24,817 bases of DNA from a virus, in the IMG/VR virus record IMGVR_UViG_3300031224_000043, positions 1 through 24,817 of that record; one strand, given 5' to 3'. Shown here piece by piece: positions 2,892 to 23,332 of this stretch. Numbering within the stretch: position 1 is the first letter of the stretch; each line of letters opens with the position of its first letter. Both the position numbers and the translations under genes were made by a program. The notes below the pieces were generated by a model. It was not told where the DNA came from. It did no database searches and worked only from the letters and a program-made list of their open reading frames with translations.

Positions 2892-2922
2892 GTCTTCTTC
2901 TTCTTTATTTTGTTTTTGTAAT

Positions 2923-2957
2923 TAATCAGAAAACTACAGGATTTATCACCCTGTAGT
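2923..2957 (-). terminator. Terminator-like hairpin just downstream of the major capsid gene
   Basis: On the minus strand ACTACAGG (2957-2950) pairs with CCTGTAGT (2940-2933) as an 8-bp stem, followed by TTTTC. It sits in the 80-bp gap between the capsid stop and the next gene. Such a site would make capsid mRNA more abundant than the genes beyond it. Confidence 0.65.
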
Positions 2958-2973
2958 CTGATCAAAATATATA

Positions 2974-4491
2974 TTATCCTAAAATATTAGGTAATAAACT
3001 TGCTGTTCTTGATGGGTCTAAAACCAAAGAACCTATTGTACACATTGCAGTAATAGTAGCAGAATCTTCCATTCTACTCATAGTACCACCTCTACGACCC
3101 GTAAACGGATCACGTATACCTGCTTGATAACCACGAAGCTCATCTTCTCCTTTAACCATACATTTCTGAATGTTAGGTTCTTGTGTAGATCCTATATAGA
3201 AAATGTCATATCTATAAGATTCAGCTACACCACCATTAGGGTGAAGAATTTTGTTACGGATTTTATCGTCATAAAAAGGATCTACGTCAATAGTTACTGT
3301 AACACCGTTTGGAGCTTTCCATTCAGTAAACTGAAATCCACCAGATAGTGAATTGTCATGAAGTTTAGAAGTTGTAGACTTAAGAACATTAACGTTAGTA
3401 TTGTCAAATCCAATGGAAGTCCATCCCATTGCTTCTTTAGTTACTGCTTCATGGAACTGAATAGCTCCACGTTCACCTGTTTTAATTACAAATTTACGTT
3501 CACCAAAATCAAGTTTACCTTCAGATAATTCAGATAACATATCAGTAAGTAAACGAAGACTAAACAAATTATAAAAACTTGTGTTAGATACTTCCATTTG
3601 CTCACGAATACCTGAACCAGCTTTAATAGTAATACTAGATTTACCAGTGTTTAGATAACGTCCGTTTTCATCACGGTTTGTTTTTCCGAAGAATTGTGTA
3701 CGTGATTTAATTTTAGCAATTGCTTGCTCAAATTGCCAATACACTTCTTGCATCCAAGTTTTAGATTCATGAATTTTACCAGTTTTACTATCCCGTGTTG
3801 GAATAGTAGCTGATACACCCATTGTACCTGTCAACTTTGTATCAATCATTTTACCAGAAACCTTGTGTTCCATACGAATGTATGAAAAAGAGTTTCTCAT
3901 TGTATAAGGAGTATTGAATTGAATACCAGCACCTTTAATAGATAACTCATCTTCAATCGGAGCTCCTTCAATGCTCCATCTAGTTTGCGGTACAAGTTCA
4001 GTACCTGGAATACCAGATAAAGAGCTTTCATCACCAAATACTTCTGCATCATACACAAAACGATTCGTTCCATCAGGACGAGCATCACTTGTTAATATTA
4101 CACGATAAGTATCTGGATTTTCACCAGCAATTTGCATTACATCTGTAAAGTAAGGCTCAGAGAATACTAATTGGAAAGGCAGTCTACCTGCACCAACACC
4201 AATGGTGCTTGCATCTACAATAATTCCTTCAAAAATAGCCTCTACAAGAGGAATATTTCTTTCAGAACTACCTGCTAATTTCCAAATGAAGTCATCATCT
4301 GTGTCAAAATACTTTACTGGGAACATGCTCAACATGGAGTCAATGTTTTTCATCCCTGACTGTTGCAAAAGTTGTGTAGTGATCTTAGTTGCCATTTGAG
4401 GAGCCTGATGCCAAATAGCACCAAGGTGATTCCTTGTTGTAAGACCAGTAAACGATTTTGCGTGAGTCATTACGAATTTTCCTACGCTCAT
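2974..4491 (-). CDS. Major capsid protein, 505 aa (candidate)
   Basis: The call rests on order and size. It is a 505-residue soluble protein, directly after a scaffold-like gene, with portal and terminase upstream on the same strand. That is the usual place for the capsid gene in tailed phages, and the length fits the roughly 500-residue capsid proteins of crAss-like and related Bacteroidota phages. It begins MSVGKFVMTHAKSFTGLTTR and has a mixed alpha/beta composition with no membrane segment. Codon choice is less AT-biased than in neighbouring genes (ACC, GGT and CGT are common), as expected for a highly made virion protein, and a hairpin terminator follows it. The start is the only ATG close to an A-rich leader. 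A fold comparison with HK97 would settle it. Confidence 0.75.
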   Translation of the reverse strand: MSVGKFVMTHAKSFTGLTTRNHLGAIWHQAPQMATKITTQLLQQSGMKNIDSMLSMFPVKYFDTDDDFIWKLAGSSERNIPLVEAIFEGIIVDASTIGVGAGRLPFQLVFSEPYFTDVMQIAGENPDTYRVILTSDARPDGTNRFVYDAEVFGDESSLSGIPGTELVPQTRWSIEGAPIEDELSIKGAGIQFNTPYTMRNSFSYIRMEHKVSGKMIDTKLTGTMGVSATIPTRDSKTGKIHESKTWMQEVYWQFEQAIAKIKSRTQFFGKTNRDENGRYLNTGKSSITIKAGSGIREQMEVSNTSFYNLFSLRLLTDMLSELSEGKLDFGERKFVIKTGERGAIQFHEAVTKEAMGWTSIGFDNTNVNVLKSTTSKLHDNSLSGGFQFTEWKAPNGVTVTIDVDPFYDDKIRNKILHPNGGVAESYRYDIFYIGSTQEPNIQKCMVKGEDELRGYQAGIRDPFTGRRGGTMSRMEDSATITAMCTIGSLVLDPSRTASLLPNILG

Positions 4492-17791: not shown

Positions 17792-18277
17792 ATGAGTAAA
17801 TTAATTGAAATGAAAGCGAGTATCAACATTAACCCTGTTAATGGTGAGAAAACAAAGCAGTTTGTAGGAGAAGGTCGTCTTGTAGGTTCTATCGGAACTA
17901 AAGATATGGTTTACACCAATTCAAAAGGTGTTGAGAAAAGCTATCGTCTTGCAACAGCTAAGGTCAACATCAAAGGCTTGGGAGAACGTGCACTATTGTT
18001 GCAAGTACACCAATCTAACATTGAAAAAATGGAAGACGGTGTTGAGGGATTTGAATCAGGAGAAAACTACCTTACAACGGTACGTCTTGTAAAAAAGACA
18101 GACGGTACAGGTATGACGTTACTAGGTAACATCTCTCATTTAACTGGTTCTGGTTCTGATAACGACGTTAGCGATGATGAACTTGCTGCACTTGGTGAAA
18201 ACTTTGATGCAGATCAAGCTGAAGAACCTGTAGCAGCAGCAGCTGAAGCAGCACCATCAATTGGCGGTGTTAACTAG
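17792..18277 (+). CDS. Putative single-stranded DNA-binding protein, 161 aa (tentative)
   Basis: Residues about 1-118 are beta-rich with glycine turns (FVGEGRLVGSIGTKDMVYTN, later ALLLQVHQSNIEKM), as expected for an OB-type barrel. The C-terminal 40 residues are acidic and low in complexity (SDNDVSDDELAALGENFDAD, then an Ala/Glu-rich tail). This acidic tail is the hallmark of phage and bacterial SSBs, though it is not specific. Codon usage (CGT, GGT, AAC) is distinct from the AT-rich neighbours and implies high expression. The gene has its own leader element and a strong terminator, so it is a single-gene transcript, consistent with an abundant replication protein. Another abundant small protein is possible. 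Confidence 0.5.
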   Translation: MSKLIEMKASININPVNGEKTKQFVGEGRLVGSIGTKDMVYTNSKGVEKSYRLATAKVNIKGLGERALLLQVHQSNIEKMEDGVEGFESGENYLTTVRLVKKTDGTGMTLLGNISHLTGSGSDNDVSDDELAALGENFDADQAEEPVAAAAEAAPSIGGVN

Positions 18278-19541: not shown

Positions 19542-19763
19542 ATGAACACAATAATAATAACAATAAGTATCATACTATGGATTAGTTATGGTATATTTAC
19601 ATGCTATCAAAGAGTATTAGAAAGTATAGATGATAATGACGGTATAAATACTTTAGCTTTTAGTGATGTAGTAATAATATTAACATTAATAATAATAGCA
19701 CCTTTATCATTAATATACAGAATTATAATAGGTATATTTAAAATCCCTAGAAAATGGTATTAA
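19542..19763 (+). CDS. Small two-helix membrane protein, 73 aa
   Basis: Hydrophobic segments at about residues 3-19 and 42-68 flank an acidic middle (ESIDDNDGINTL), and the C-terminus is basic (KIPRKWY). It is the centre of a three-gene run of tiny membrane proteins: it starts 2 bp after the 53-residue gene, and its stop overlaps the next start by 10 nt. The function is unknown. Confidence 0.65.
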   Translation: MNTIIITISIILWISYGIFTCYQRVLESIDDNDGINTLAFSDVVIILTLIIIAPLSLIYRIIIGIFKIPRKWY

Positions 19764-19900
19764 TAGAAATTAGCGATAACGAACTATCAAAAGGATTAGA
19801 TCAAGTTGGTAGTTCATTAAATAGTTTATTCATAATATTAGTAATGATAATAATAATTATACTGATAATAAACTATATGATAGAAAAAAAAGAAAAATAA
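19754..19900 (+). CDS. Small single-pass membrane protein, 48 aa
   Basis: The acidic N-terminal half (MVLIEISDNELSKGLDQVGS) is followed by one membrane helix (about 24-40) and a lysine-rich end (EKKEK). It overlaps the previous gene by 10 nt. A bidirectional terminator follows at 19938. Family not recognised. Confidence 0.6.
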   Translation: MVLIEISDNELSKGLDQVGSSLNSLFIILVMIIIIILIINYMIEKKEK

Positions 19901-19937
19901 TAATAGATTATATTCATTTTGGTTGGTGGTTAATCAG

Positions 19938-19980
19938 AAAGGGCTAGTAAGAAACCGATTAAAGTTTCCCTAGCCCTTTT
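19938..19980 (+). terminator. Strong terminator, possibly bidirectional
   Basis: AAAGGGCTAG (19938-19947) pairs perfectly with CTAGCCCTTT (19970-19979). An inner stem GAAAC/GTTTC (19951-19955 with 19964-19968) extends the structure. On the plus strand the stem runs into TTTT; on the minus strand it runs into TTTCT, so leftward transcripts may also stop here. Confidence 0.8.
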
Positions 19981-20047
19981 ATAAATACCCCTTACCCTTC
20001 AAATATTATCTTATTAACAAAGACGAATGTAGAGGATGTCAACACTG

Positions 20048-20084
20048 TTGTAGCTTTTCGTTTTTATATTGCACAAAGCTACAA
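20048..20084. repeat. 10-bp inverted repeat at a minus-strand promoter
   Basis: TTGTAGCTTT (20048-20057) and AAAGCTACAA (20075-20084) are perfect inverted repeats 17 bp apart. The right arm overlaps the minus-strand TAGCTTTG box. It may be an operator for a dimeric regulator, or a hairpin in a plus-strand transcript. Confidence 0.55.
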
Positions 20085-20099
20085 TTAATATTTGACAAT
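20074..20099 (-). promoter_or_regulatory. Minus-strand promoter-like site with no gene behind it
   Basis: On the minus strand the TAGCTTTG box (20081-20074) is preceded, 4 nt away, by the same 14-nt sequence (20099-20086) as in the promoter at 16566. The expected TTG at 20 nt is TAG instead, so the -33 box is imperfect. Any transcript would run leftward towards the terminator at 19938-19980, giving an RNA of roughly 130 nt with no ORF. Confidence 0.4.
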
Positions 20100-20183
20100 T
20101 CCTAGTAATTAACAAACTATTTTATATTATTTAACCATAAAATATATGATATAATAATATAGAGTGTATTAAAAAACAATAGA

Positions 20184-20309
20184 ATGAAATCATATACAAT
20201 AAAAGAGATAGAAACAATGGTAGAAAACATGATGTCACACACTAATAATCTTGAAGATTTACGTGATCATTTAATGTTTGAAGGTGATTTTCCTGACTAT
20301 GCTAAATAA
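20184..20309 (+). CDS. Small acidic protein, 41 aa
   Basis: MKSYTIKEIETMVENMMSHT followed by an acidic helical stretch and FPDYAK. It is soluble and predicted helical. The codon pattern is normal and the leader is A-rich (AAAAAACAATAGA). It stands alone between the terminator at 19938 and the next tiny gene. No family is recognised. Confidence 0.55.
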   Translation: MKSYTIKEIETMVENMMSHTNNLEDLRDHLMFEGDFPDYAK

Positions 20310-20368
20310 TCTATCATAAAATAATAGAGTGTCTATTATTTAATCATAAACAATTAATAATCAACAAC

Positions 20369-20434
20369 ATGAAAATAATGTGGACACTAATAATATTAGG
20401 TATAATAATATTTGTACTATCAGATAGAGATTAA
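20369..20434 (+). CDS. Tiny membrane peptide, 21 aa
   Basis: MKIMWTLIILGIIIFVLSDR plus Asp. The peptide is a single hydrophobic helix with a charged end, preceded by an A-rich leader (TCAACAAC). It resembles the very small membrane peptides of phage early regions. At 21 codons, chance cannot be excluded. Confidence 0.4.
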   Translation: MKIMWTLIILGIIIFVLSDRD

Positions 20435-20516
20435 TATATTATTATATAATATACTCTATGATAAAAAAATATAGTAGTATATCTTAAAAAAATAGAATCA
20501 ATTAAATAATAATAGA

Positions 20517-20828
20517 ATGATAGATAAAAAAGAAAATCCAATAGTAATAATGGTATTAATTATTTTTACTTTAGTGCTTTTTATAGGTACCGTTACATCA
20601 TGTTCATCTAAAAAAGCATATTGTCCTAACTATAACTATAGTAAAATAGATAGATTTGTCTCTATAGACGAGTGTAAAGCAATAACATTTTCTAATGATA
20701 CATTATACAATGTAAATAAAAATGTAGCATCTAAGATAGTTATAGGTAAGGATTATATCATAGATATAAAAGTTAGACATGATACATATTGTAACATAGT
20801 TCAAAAAGATTTATTAAATATACATTAA
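20517..20828 (+). CDS. Putative lipoprotein, 103 aa
   Basis: A charged start (MIDKKENPIV) is followed by a hydrophobic stretch ending in TVTSCSS at residues 25-31, a plausible lipobox with Cys29 as the lipidated residue. The mature part contains three further cysteines and beta strands (YIIDIKVRHD). Phages encode lipoproteins for superinfection exclusion, but no specific family is recognised. It is followed 2 bp later by the next gene. If the lipobox is not used, the protein is a single-pass membrane protein. Confidence 0.6.
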   Translation: MIDKKENPIVIMVLIIFTLVLFIGTVTSCSSKKAYCPNYNYSKIDRFVSIDECKAITFSNDTLYNVNKNVASKIVIGKDYIIDIKVRHDTYCNIVQKDLLNIH

Positions 20829-20830
20829 TT

Positions 20831-21013
20831 ATGAAATTAATAATAGTTTCTTATTTTATATACAATGGTATATTTAGATGTTTTCCAGAAATAGTAAATT
20901 TAAATTTTGATGTAAAAACAAGAATTGATTCTTTTAATAAGAAAAATGAATCTTTTGCAGATAAATATAATTATATATCTAAATCTGCAAAAAACAAAAG
21001 AAACAAATACTAA
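20831..21013 (+). CDS. Hypothetical basic protein, 60 aa
   Basis: A hydrophobic start (MKLIIVSYFIYNGIFRCFPE) is followed by a Lys/Asn-rich hydrophilic tail (SAKNKRNKY at the end). It may be a weak membrane anchor. It is spaced 2 bp from the lipoprotein gene and ends where the RNA-rich region begins. Family not recognised. Confidence 0.55.
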   Translation: MKLIIVSYFIYNGIFRCFPEIVNLNFDVKTRIDSFNKKNESFADKYNYISKSAKNKRNKY

Positions 21014-21038
21014 AATAAAACGTTAAACCTATGACGTT

Positions 21039-21105
21039 GTGATTAAAAATTAAGGCTTTAACAATGTATGGTAGATTGCCGTATGAATTAGCTACCATTA
21101 ATCAC
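21039..21105 (+). other. Long-stem RNA structure at the start of the RNA island
   Basis: CTACCATTAATCAC (21092-21105) pairs with two upstream blocks: ATGGTAG (21068-21074) for the inner 7 bp and GTGATTA (21039-21045) for the outer 7 bp, with a 22-nt bulge between them. A small AACGT/ACGTT hairpin precedes it. It is followed by the 24-nt box, not a T-run, so it is unlikely to be a terminator. It could be an mRNA 3' end, a processing site or the first domain of the next RNA. Confidence 0.45.
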
Positions 21106-21111
21106 TAAATA

Positions 21112-21135
21112 AAGATAGAATATAAATTGTAAAAT
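21112..21135 (+). repeat. 24-nt box, copy 1
   Basis: Identical over 24 nt to 21454-21477; the core is AATATAAATTGTAAAAT. Each copy starts a non-coding region that ends in a terminator. It could be a promoter, an RNA processing site, or the 5' strand of a conserved helix. A looser relative occurs inside the tmRNA gene near 22360-22386. Confidence 0.8.
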
Positions 21136-21248
21136 TAAATATTACTCAGGAAGGGTGAGTCAATGGTTTCTCCTTAATTAATAAATTAAGTGATTCAAAA
21201 AGGGAAGTGACTTATATTTAAATTTTACATATTACATCTGTCAATTAC

Positions 21249-21285
21249 CTACATTCAACAGGTTGAAAAATGAGTGTAGTTTTTT
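21249..21285 (+). terminator. Terminator of structured RNA 1
   Basis: CTACATTCA (21249-21257) pairs with TGAGTGTAG (21271-21279), 9 bp with one G-U pair, followed immediately by TTTTTT. Confidence 0.85.
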
Positions 21286-21306
21286 ATTAACTTAAATTAT
21301 TGATAA

Positions 21307-21438
21307 ATGGAAATAAAATGGGATAACGAATGTAAAAGATGTAGTACGGGATGTACACATGATTATTGTCATGATTGTCAAATGTTAGGACATGACCCCA
21401 GTTTAAGTAATTATAACAAGAGAACTGAAACCGACTAG
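21307..21438 (+). CDS. Tiny cysteine- and histidine-rich protein, 43 aa
   Basis: MEIKWDNECKRCSTGCTHDY is followed by CHDCQMLGHD and a polar tail. Cysteines at residues 9, 12, 16, 21 and 24, plus histidines at 18, 22 and 29, form a compact potential zinc knuckle. It sits between the two structured RNAs, 21 bp after the first terminator. The density of metal ligands argues against a chance frame. An RNA- or DNA-binding role is an inference. Confidence 0.6.
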   Translation: MEIKWDNECKRCSTGCTHDYCHDCQMLGHDPSLSNYNKRTETD

Positions 21439-21453
21439 TTCTATAAATATTAG

Positions 21454-21477
21454 AAGATAGAATATAAATTGTAAAAT
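21454..21477 (+). repeat. 24-nt box, copy 2
   Basis: Identical to 21112-21135. A second shared box follows: 21516-21530 matches 21225-21239 at 14 of 15 positions. The middle is 113 nt (copy 1) or 62 nt (copy 2) from box start to box start. Confidence 0.8.
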
Positions 21478-21905
21478 CATTAATTGTTGTGGCTCATTAG
21501 TGGGCTTCCTTGAAATTACATATTAAATCTTATCAAGTGTACCAACTGTATTGTAATATGTTGGTTGTGTATAAAGAGACACTAGTGCGTCACATCACTT
21601 TACACTACACTTAGGAGTTTACAGCAAGAGATATTAACGTAATAAATTAGATTAGAATTTATAAAGCCTCTTAATACCTCGCGACCATTTATAATAGTGA
21701 AGACGGATGTCTTTTATGAGATTTACCTCTAGCAGCTATTATAGATGGTGCTAAACGCAAAGCGTGAAATCAGTAAAAATTGACTCATAGGTTTAATATA
21801 ATCCCTAAAGAGGTGTAGTAGTGACTAAATTTAGAATAATATGTACTAAAAAGAAACATACTAAAGGAAGAGCTGCAAGGGGATGAAACCTCGCTTATAA
21901 ACATT

Positions 21906-21928
21906 AACTAATGGGCAGTTAGTTTTTT
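21906..21928 (+). terminator. Terminator of structured RNA 2
   Basis: AACTAA (21906-21911) pairs with TTAGTT (21919-21924) across a 7-nt loop, and the second arm runs into TTTTTT (21923-21928). The stem is short but placed exactly before the tmRNA gene. Confidence 0.6.
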
Positions 21929-21995
21929 ATTAATTAAACAATTTTATATTATGAGTAAACAAGGAAAGATAGATTAACAAAATGTTAACATTAAC

Positions 21996-22444
21996 GGGGC
22001 TGACTGGTTTTGACCGCAATGTAAATATTAATAAACAGTAGTGAGTGATCACTTTAAATATTGTAGATGAAATTTCTAAACGGAAATAAAATGAGTACGC
22101 AGGAAACTGCACAGGAAATGGCTAACATGAGTGTTGTTCACAACATTCTTAACGGATCTGACGATCTAGTTGCACCAGTTGCAAAAGTTAAGTTAGCAAT
22201 GGCAGCATAATGCCAACGGTGAAAAAAGCATTGTAGTAGCCATTATGTAGTAACTTATCACAGAATGCTTGATATTCTGGTATGTCCAGATAGACCCGAA
22301 GTACATTAGTATAGTGAAGCTGTATGATAAGTTAATTTAATTTAGTATGAGTACCTAATGTAGAAGAAAACTATAAATTGAAAAACTGTATAATTTATTA
22401 ATAATCAAATTGTTGGGACAGGGGTTCGACTCCCCTCAGCTCCA
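21996..22444 (+). ncRNA. ssrA: tmRNA (transfer-messenger RNA), about 449 nt
   Basis: tmRNA rescues stalled ribosomes by acting first as tRNA-Ala and then as a short mRNA. The 5' end GGGGCTG (21996-22002) pairs with CAGCTCC (22437-22443) as the acceptor stem, and ACTGGTTTTGACC follows as the D-like loop. The T arm AGGGG-TTCGACT-CCCCT lies at 22420-22436. Helix 2 is visible: TATTAATAAA (22026-22035) pairs with TTTATTAATA (22394-22403) and CAAT (22017-22020) with ATTG (22409-22412). Downstream stems, including AACTTATCA/TGATAAGTT and AGAAT/ATTCT, fit the pseudoknot region. CCA is not encoded. At 449 nt it is longer than typical (about 350-400), mostly because of the tag region. tmRNAs are known in some phages, for example certain mycobacteriophages. 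Confidence 0.92.
22067..22210 (+). other. Unusually long tag reading frame inside the tmRNA
   Basis: The frame that ends in GCA ATG GCA GCA TAA (…LAMAA, stop at 22208-22210) matches the expected -LAA-type degradation tag, with the stop codon in the loop of hairpin TGGCA/TGCCA. Upstream the frame stays open back to 22067. It could be read as 47 codons from ATG 22067 or 39 codons from ATG 22091 (MSTQETAQEMANMSVVHNIL...). Known tags are about 8-35 residues. The resume codon cannot be placed from sequence alone, so this may be a long tag, a tag plus spacer, or a small gene set into the tmRNA. Confidence 0.55.
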
Positions 22445-22445
22445 C

Positions 22446-22553
22446 AGACTTCGCCGTCTAAAAAGCTGTGCCAGCAGGATATCTGGCAAATATAACATCA
22501 TCCAGAATTTTTAACACTTTTCTAGATTTGGGTAAGGTTATGTATAAAAGTGT
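22446..22553 (+). other. Structured trailer after the tmRNA
   Basis: Three hairpins in sequence: AGAC/GTCT (22446-22459), TGCCAG/CTGGCA (22469-22488) and a perfect 8-bp ACACTTTT/AAAAGTGT (22514-22521 with 22546-22553). No ORF. It lies between the tmRNA 3' end and its terminator, so it is probably transcribed with the tmRNA and then cut off or kept as a separate RNA. Confidence 0.45.
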
Positions 22554-22572
22554 ACTATATTGCAATTAAATA

Positions 22573-22604
22573 GAGTCTACAACTGTTTTGTAGGCTCTTA
22601 TTTT
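22573..22604 (+). terminator. Terminator of the tmRNA transcript
   Basis: GAGTCTACAA (22573-22582) pairs with TTGTAGGCTC (22588-22597), 10 bp with one G-U, followed by TTATTTT. Confidence 0.8.
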
Positions 22605-22619
22605 AAAACATAATATAAA

Positions 22620-22771
22620 TGCTTATTAGCTCAGTTAGGTAGAGCACTTGGAAAAGATAACGCTACAAAATATATAGTAAAGAACTTTTTTACTAAAGTT
22701 GTTAATCTTTATATTTGTATAGATAATTTCTAAAATTCAGGATGTCACTGGTTCAAATCCAGTATAAGCAT
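22620..22771 (+). tRNA. tRNA gene interrupted in the anticodon arm by about 80 nt
   Basis: The acceptor arms TGCTTAT (22620-22626) and ATAAGCA (22764-22770) pair fully, with T8 and A9 between the acceptor and D stems. The D arm is GCTC-AGTTAGGTA-GAGC and the T arm ACTGG-TTCAAAT-CCAGT. The anticodon-stem halves CTTGG (22647-22651) and TCAGG (22737-22741) pair with two G-U wobbles and are 85 nt apart instead of 7. The insert folds on itself: AAAGATAAC/GTTAATCTTT and TAGTAAA/TTTACTA. If the loop is the last 7 nt before TCAGG (CTAAAAT), the anticodon would be AAA, which is unusual, so I do not assign an amino acid. The insert is too small for a group I intron. It could be a degenerate intron, or a tRNA-like RNA rather than a working tRNA. 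CCA is not encoded. Confidence 0.6.
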
Positions 22772-22812
22772 TTTTATATTAAAAATTAATTATTAACTTA
22801 AATTTTATAACC

Positions 22813-23004
22813 ATGAATCAATCAAATGTAGCCATTCAGGCGTATCAAAGAAAAGAAAGAGTAATTCGAGTATTTAAAATGAAATACATAGGTGATAGAC
22901 CTACTTGTAAATCAGTAAGAGTTATTGCTAGCACATGTAGATTTAATAGATTAAATAACCGAATGAGAGCTGAATTAGTTTCTGATTTTGCTATATTTAA
23001 ATAA
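22813..23004 (+). CDS. Small basic protein, 63 aa
   Basis: MNQSNVAIQAYQRKERVIRV is followed by a second basic stretch (CRFNRLNNRMRAELVSDF) with two cysteines. High Arg and Lys content suggests nucleic-acid binding, for example to the RNAs encoded just upstream, but no motif is recognised. It starts 42 nt after the interrupted tRNA and may share its transcript. It is 10 bp before the next gene. Confidence 0.6.
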   Translation: MNQSNVAIQAYQRKERVIRVFKMKYIGDRPTCKSVRVIASTCRFNRLNNRMRAELVSDFAIFK

Positions 23005-23014
23005 ATTTAAAATC

Positions 23015-23332
23015 ATGTTAGAAATGTATATTATTGGAAGTTGTATAATAATAATAATGATATATAATATTTATTATTATAAAAAGTATATTATACAACC
23101 TAAATTAGAAGAAATATTAGCTGGTGGTATATATTCAGTAGTAAAAGTATCAGAAAATAAATATTGTATAGTTAAAAATTTTTCTAAATATCAAGATCAT
23201 ACTGTTGTATTAGGACTTGATAATTATGAATGGTTTAAATGTAAATCAAATATGCTTACGGTAAACACAACTTATGTAAATTATTATGAAGCATTTGATA
23301 AAGCAAAAATATTAAATATGAAAAACAAATAA
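23015..23332 (+). CDS. Single-pass membrane protein, 105 aa
   Basis: I chose ATG 23015; the frame extends upstream only to a TTG. The N-terminus (MLEMYIIGSCIIIIMIYNIY) is one membrane helix. The soluble part from residue 30 is beta-rich (GGIYSVVKVSENKYCIVKNF, then DHTVVLGLDNYEWFKCKSNM) and may be a small barrel. It is probably anchored in the inner membrane with the domain on one side. Family not recognised. Confidence 0.65.
   Translation: MLEMYIIGSCIIIIMIYNIYYYKKYIIQPKLEEILAGGIYSVVKVSENKYCIVKNFSKYQDHTVVLGLDNYEWFKCKSNMLTVNTTYVNYYEAFDKAKILNMKNK

Follow-up and report, generated by a model that had tools for sequence, protein, structure and literature searches.

The window analysed here, the whole 24,817-nucleotide stretch (24.8 kb) of an IMG/VR virus record, comes from a crAss-like phage, as identified by its major capsid protein (Pfam Crass_capsid, E 6.5e-181). 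A portal protein, PhoH, a GroEL-like chaperonin and a large terminase are also encoded in it. When positions 19700-23100 were searched against Rfam, only two chance-level matches were obtained beyond a tmRNA, even at E 5. The features of the locus are as follows.

21020 to 21285, plus strand: second copy of the 5' module, truncated, with H1 (21020-21037), H2 (21039-21044/21100-21105) and H3 (21114-21119/21236-21242)
21249 to 21285, plus strand: hairpin and U run closing this upstream copy
21307 to 21438, plus strand: putative Cys-rich ORF of 43 aa (five cysteines), separating the RNA copies and overlapping H1' with its stop codon
21422 to 21754, plus strand: conserved RNA unit (subtype A), from H1' to UGCUAA; matched by models R2 (21423-21754) and R1 (21533-21754)
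21422 to 21441, plus strand: 5' hairpin H1', GAACU-GAAACCGACU-AGUUC, loop with AAACC, read directly
21456 to 21534, plus strand: H3, GAUAGA (21456-21461) pairing with UCUUAUC (21528-21534), tip variable
within 21456 to 21534, plus strand: conserved internal loop of H3, AUAUAAAUU / CAUAUUAAA
21535 to 21612, plus strand: H5, AAGUGU (21535-21540) with ACACUU (21607-21612), enclosing H4 and a variable stem
21542 to 21564, plus strand: H4, hairpin CCAAC-loop-GUUGG; UGUAA of the loop (21552-21556) is one side of pseudoknot PK1
21613 to 21628, plus strand: conserved joining strand AGGAGUUUACAGCAAG, whose UUACA (21619-21623) forms the other side of PK1
21628 to 21680, plus strand: H6, GAGAUAUUAA (21628-21637) paired to UUAAUACCUC (21671-21680) with a single mismatch; tip variable; GCGACC comes next
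21685 to 21748, plus strand: H7, the long helix of the sequence-only reading, with a variable internal hairpin
21749 to 21754, plus strand: conserved 3' end UGCUAA, near-invariant in alignments A1, A2 and A3
21755 to 21928, plus strand: less conserved 3' extension, ending in a hairpin and U run (stem 21906-21911/21919-21924)
21996 to 22447, plus strand: neighbouring phage tmRNA (ARAGORN; Rfam RF00023, 53.8 bits)

The sequence-only reading had proposed a large structured RNA at 21454-21928. A structured RNA does lie there, but its boundaries have to be redrawn, as the conserved unit runs from about 21422 to 21754. The long helix described in that reading corresponds to H7 (CCAUUUAUAAUAG, 21685-21697, with CUAUUAUAGAUGG, 21736-21748); it has 13 bp, or 14 with the closing U-G, and encloses a further hairpin as claimed. 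The absence of a coding frame was borne out, with no ORF of at least 50 aa on either strand of 21454-21928, and so was the adjoining phage tmRNA, which starts at 21996. The proposed terminator at the end of the region is likewise present at 21928, although it was read directly from the sequence and a consensus terminator scan did not list it. The 3' extension is partly common to two other contigs, G023 and L192 (UUGACUCAUAG...CUAAAGAGG). Of note, the RNA gene is split in the window: after module A (21020-21285) come the 43-aa ORF and the main unit (21422-21754). The latter has a 5' hairpin that differs in sequence from that of module A, yet AAACC is present in its loop once more. One homologous contig (L163) has the same split, the same 5' module and the same terminator, and H1' recurs there and in L158, L146 and L187.

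On the other hand, the claim that the nested set of helices exceeds chance expectation fails on one sequence. The 475-nt region folds at -102.3 kcal/mol (z -1.41), and 8 of 100 shuffles were equally good. Folding energies of the homologues also lie near shuffled values (median z -0.9), and the upstream module region (21012-21292) gave a z of -2.55. Since folding energy is not significant for the 475-nt region or for most homologues, we relied on covariation instead.

About 90 contigs of IMG/VR hold homologues, as does Cellulophaga phage phi14:2. All homologues are in viral contigs, and they fall into two subtypes (A and B) with one architecture. Phage phi14:2 is kin to the window phage by its capsid (73% identity) and has, upstream of its own tmRNA, a non-coding stretch with the same motifs in an identical order. 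BLASTN in capsid-related records revealed further partial matches in colinear order, and a search of IMG/VR with two conserved words returned contigs carrying the whole architecture. A covariance model (R1) built on the 3' core and seeded from both subtypes matches the window at 21533-21754 (E 9.7e-11), the window being a seed member. R1 also recovers type-A members (such as L211, L209, L199, L193 and L187; E 1.6e-7 to 2.7e-5) that had been fetched only through an H3 16-mer absent from R1. The full-length subtype-A model (R2), whose seed does not include the window, matches it at 21423-21754 (70.7 bits, E 1.8e-15). For subtype B, that of phi14:2, a 24-base word is present in 65 IMG/VR contigs. 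The corresponding model (R3) matches every one of the 63 contigs searched, of which 48 had not been part of its seed, with E values down to 8.6e-27, as well as crAss-like records reached by capsid alone (G017 with 93 bits, G011 with 71 and G010 with 53). At E 0.01, R3 fails to match the window; what unites the subtypes is R1, which was seeded from both, together with their common motif order and their common pseudoknot. Other routes were unproductive: BLASTN of the window region against INPHARED returned only pieces of tmRNA, the neighbouring protein at 17792-18274 used as bait gave no relatives, and an exact motif search of genome contigs yielded 25 matches, none homologous by R1. An R2 match in crAss001 (24.5 bits) was discarded as chance because it lies inside an annotated coding sequence, and a match in PQ006092 was discarded likewise.

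From 5' to 3', the shared architecture comprises H1, H2, H3, H5 enclosing H4, the strand GAGUnnnnnGCAAG, H6, GUGACC, H7 and GUGCUAA. The conserved unit mostly spans 260-420 nt, reaching about 570 nt, and the tips of several stems vary in length. The H1 loop contains AAACC in subtype A and AAACA in subtype B, and the segment between H2 and H3 reads ACUAAA-AAAGAUA and ACAUAAAGAUA, respectively. The internal loop of H3 is conserved in subtype A. H4 has a second form (CCCUU...GAGGG) in L145, L147 and L103, the last of which also bears a tRNA-like insertion in the H3 region. The minus strand of L209 carries a tandem pair of RNA units (about 241-1167), joined at GUGCUAAUGAA, the first with the second form of H4 and the next with the common form. 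This is the only case that we read as a true tandem copy; adjacent pairs of R2 or R3 matches were considered as such, and mostly proved to be one long unit split by the search.

The sequence-only reading would have been refuted by homologues without covarying pairs, and we found that the helix it named covaries, as do most of the helices. In an alignment of 19 sequences from both subtypes (A1), 94.7% of cells are paired and 18 of 31 pairs change on both sides. These double changes amount to 51 cells, whereas shuffles gave 9.1 and slid controls no more than 12. Covariation affects 22 of 51 pairs in the subtype-A alignment (A2), including the outer helix and inner stem of H3, and 15 of 44 in the subtype-B alignment (A3). 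With 65 distinct subtype-B rows fitted to R3 (A4), the figure rises to 35 of 44 pairs, with 253 compensatory cells versus 63.3 in shuffles. A mutual-information ranking on A4 placed mostly the model's own pairs at the top, a result to be taken with caution, since the rows of A4 had been fitted to that very model and the seeds trimmed manually. H6 illustrates the pattern, as its sequence differs between subtypes (GAGAUAA/UUAUCUC versus GUAGUUA/UAACUAC) and pairing is kept. In a trimmed alignment (A5), all six pairs of H5 change on both sides.

Moreover, the pseudoknot PK1 covaries across both subtypes. The joining strand has five variable bases, which in each lineage pair with their counterparts in the H4 loop: in the window UUACA/UGUAA, in other variants UCACA/UGUGA, UGGCA/UGCCA and UCCAU/AUGGA, and in subtype B UCUCA/UGAGA. 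In A5, 97.6% of PK1 cells pair and four of the five pairs change on both sides. Since the loop segments of A5 were chosen by hand, a swap test is the fairer control; at least four contiguous pairs form with the sequence's own partner in 15 of 16 distinct combinations, compared with 25% when partners are swapped between sequences. Both structural features by which we define the family, covarying stems in a core of H5, H4, H6 and H7 and a pseudoknot linking the H4 loop with the joining strand, are present. Evidence for a second tertiary contact, from CC or CA in the H1 loop to GG or UG in the joining strand, is merely suggestive. It rests on essentially one change between subtypes and has exceptions, such as L211.

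The RNA unit is non-coding, as its internal ORFs are no longer than those in shuffles (median longest ORF in the homologues 28 aa, versus 32 aa), and no conserved protein, which would also have counted against the sequence-only reading, is encoded across homologues. The G+C content of the RNA exceeds that of its flanks in 73 of 79 loci. In the phi14:2 record (KC821624.1), where the RNA region lies at about 2910-3360, the annotation places three small antisense CDS (gp007-gp009; 3106-3431) within the RNA. The RefSeq copy of this record notes removed features in that region, and these genes are likely spurious.

To our knowledge, few large conserved RNAs of phages are known. Among them, GOLLD forms a closed 14-mer RNA cage and ROOL an octameric one, and the purpose of these RNA-only cages is unknown. 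The new RNA resembles both in being a large, complex structure encoded by phages, at some loci near tRNA-type genes, with unknown function. GOLLD occurs in phages and prophages, often near tRNA genes, and has a conserved 3' part, a variable 5' part and, in many cases, over 800 nt (PMC12286853). ROOL is phage-encoded near tRNA islands, has a complex secondary structure with pseudoknots and no known function (PMC12286853), and is an abundant RNA of Lactobacillus salivarius (PMC5643018). A diverged member of either family, missed by the Rfam models, would thus share the setting and, in the case of GOLLD (PMC12286853), the conserved 3' and looser 5' parts; pseudoknots would be shared with ROOL. 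Nevertheless, no Rfam 15 family covered the unit when the window and homologues of both subtypes were searched, and neither GOLLD nor ROOL matched either subtype at gathering thresholds or in three sensitive cmscan searches with E up to 5, albeit without a GOLLD or ROOL positive control. In addition, the units are shorter than GOLLD, are linked to tmRNA rather than to tRNA islands and have no match in 295 Bacteroidia genomes, which were searched under stricter filters. We therefore regard a diverged GOLLD or ROOL as most improbable. No earlier description was found in the open-access literature, preprints and subscription journals being outside the search. Hence, the class is not represented in Rfam 15 and looks undescribed, and an earlier description cannot be excluded.

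A degenerate intron or another mobile ribozyme element could also account for a pseudoknotted core with variable peripheral stems, for carriers that are apparently unrelated phages and for the tandem copies in L209. The conserved UGCUAA resembles part of some group I cores. However, covariance models of group I introns, group II introns and other ribozymes do not match the unit, and the RNA sits between genes, with no interrupted gene, no conserved exon flank and no recurring endonuclease ORF beside it. A group I intron was rejected, with no model match and no downstream core, and we consider mobile elements of this kind very unlikely in general.

Concerning the genomic context, 355 of 379 flanking ORFs lie on the strand of the RNA and 24 on the opposite one. 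This orientation between genes, together with copies ending a few tens of bases before an ORF, is what a cis-acting leader or attenuator of the downstream gene would produce. Against this, the genes downstream of the RNA at 67 loci represent 57 families, with a median gap of 262 nt to the next ORF, and the window RNA has its own 3' terminator hairpin, followed by the tmRNA. As the downstream genes differ between loci, the RNA is not a cis leader in our reading, and we leave this explanation only a slim chance.

Wherever a tmRNA is present (14 loci), it is preceded by the RNA on the same strand, and in 10 of these loci the two are within 300 nt, versus 0.27 expected. A tRNA or tmRNA is found within 1 kb in 23 of 80 loci compared with 13.4 expected, on the strand of the RNA in all 23; with an excess of this size, the link is strong only for tmRNA. 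The constant upstream position, often at 26-250 nt, would fit a 5' processing domain of the tmRNA precursor that aids maturation or folding of the phage tmRNA. Both are pseudoknotted RNAs encoded side by side; nevertheless, the new RNA is a separate gene without a tag frame and does not match RF00023. Furthermore, no tmRNA was found in the available DNA of 66 of the 80 loci, some of which may be cut short and need not truly lack one, and in many loci the RNA lies between protein genes. A role restricted to tmRNA precursors thus seems improbable to us.

The Crass_capsid domain was found in 19 of 48 carrier contigs, including nearly all of those of 75-125 kb. It was not detected in carriers of 123 (G081), 128, 147, 153, 170, 271 and 306 kb, which are probably other large phages, although the capsid gene of a contig may be missing or go unrecognised. 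Out of ten named phage records, phi14:2 carries the RNA; no credible match came from Flavobacterium phage FpV4 or from the eight crAss-like records of gut origin or with gut hosts. The RNA would thus be dispensable in part of the crAss-like order, as the gut crAss-like phages examined lack it.

Altogether, comparative analysis establishes a conserved, covarying and non-coding unit with a pseudoknot, present in many phages, linked to tmRNA and not tied to any neighbouring gene. Covariation, tmRNA linkage and the lack of an Rfam 15 match, including GOLLD and ROOL, support the earlier proposal of a large phage RNA near tRNA-type genes that may represent a new class. We consider it quite probable that this is a stand-alone gene for a large structured RNA acting in trans, a judgement that leaves function aside and in which expression and trans action are themselves inferred. 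The same holds for its being transcribed and freed as a separate molecule, and for any part that it plays near translation. The RNA may be transcribed together with neighbouring genes, released by terminators or by tRNA-like processing, and accumulate during infection as a compact folded molecule. Its unpaired conserved strands (the AAACC loop, CAGCAAG, GUGACC and GUGCUAA) might then provide tertiary or intermolecular contacts. The steady site just upstream of the phage tmRNA points to a role near translation. In this sense, we tentatively propose that the RNA acts on the host translation machinery together with phage tRNAs and tmRNA, either as a ligand of the ribosome or of a factor or as an RNA-only assembly of the GOLLD or ROOL sort; this inference is less than an even bet. 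Equally provisional, and not favoured by the balance of probability, is the fuller proposal of a new class unrelated to GOLLD and ROOL, present in crAss-like and other large phages, that would function in trans with tmRNA and tRNAs in host takeover, possibly as a homo-oligomeric particle. If true, a further class of large phage RNA would be carried by many environmental crAss-like phages and some larger phages. The novelty would lie in the RNA family itself, for which no homologue is known; in kind, the RNA resembles GOLLD and ROOL. Phage phi14:2 is an isolated, culturable carrier, which opens structure and function to direct testing.

Several minor observations were made in these loci. A Type-P1 twister ribozyme match was found in a crAss-like phage contig (L156, 2303-2357; 39.8 bits, E 2.5e-5), below the Rfam gathering score of 67.2 bits. 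In the window, positions 22619-22771 are tRNA-like, with recognisable D and T arms and an insert of about 80 nt around the anticodon arm. ARAGORN called no tRNA there, and this may possibly be an intron-bearing or remodelled tRNA. The tmRNAs of the window (22088-22210) and of L402, L411, L420, L423, L369, L374, L427, L413, L084, L087 and L089 seem to have unusually long, conserved tags. Examples are ANMNKVFSLLREEVAVAA, ANMSKVFSLINS... and ANMQVVHNILNG...; the window frame reads ANMSVVHNILNGSDDLVAPVAKVKLAMAA, longer than the AKVKLAMAA given by ARAGORN. Finally, a small hairpin with the loop UGUACCUUAAACA recurs 3' of the RNA in L146, L118/G023, L091/G031 and L177, where it adjoins a U run or sits just before the tmRNA.
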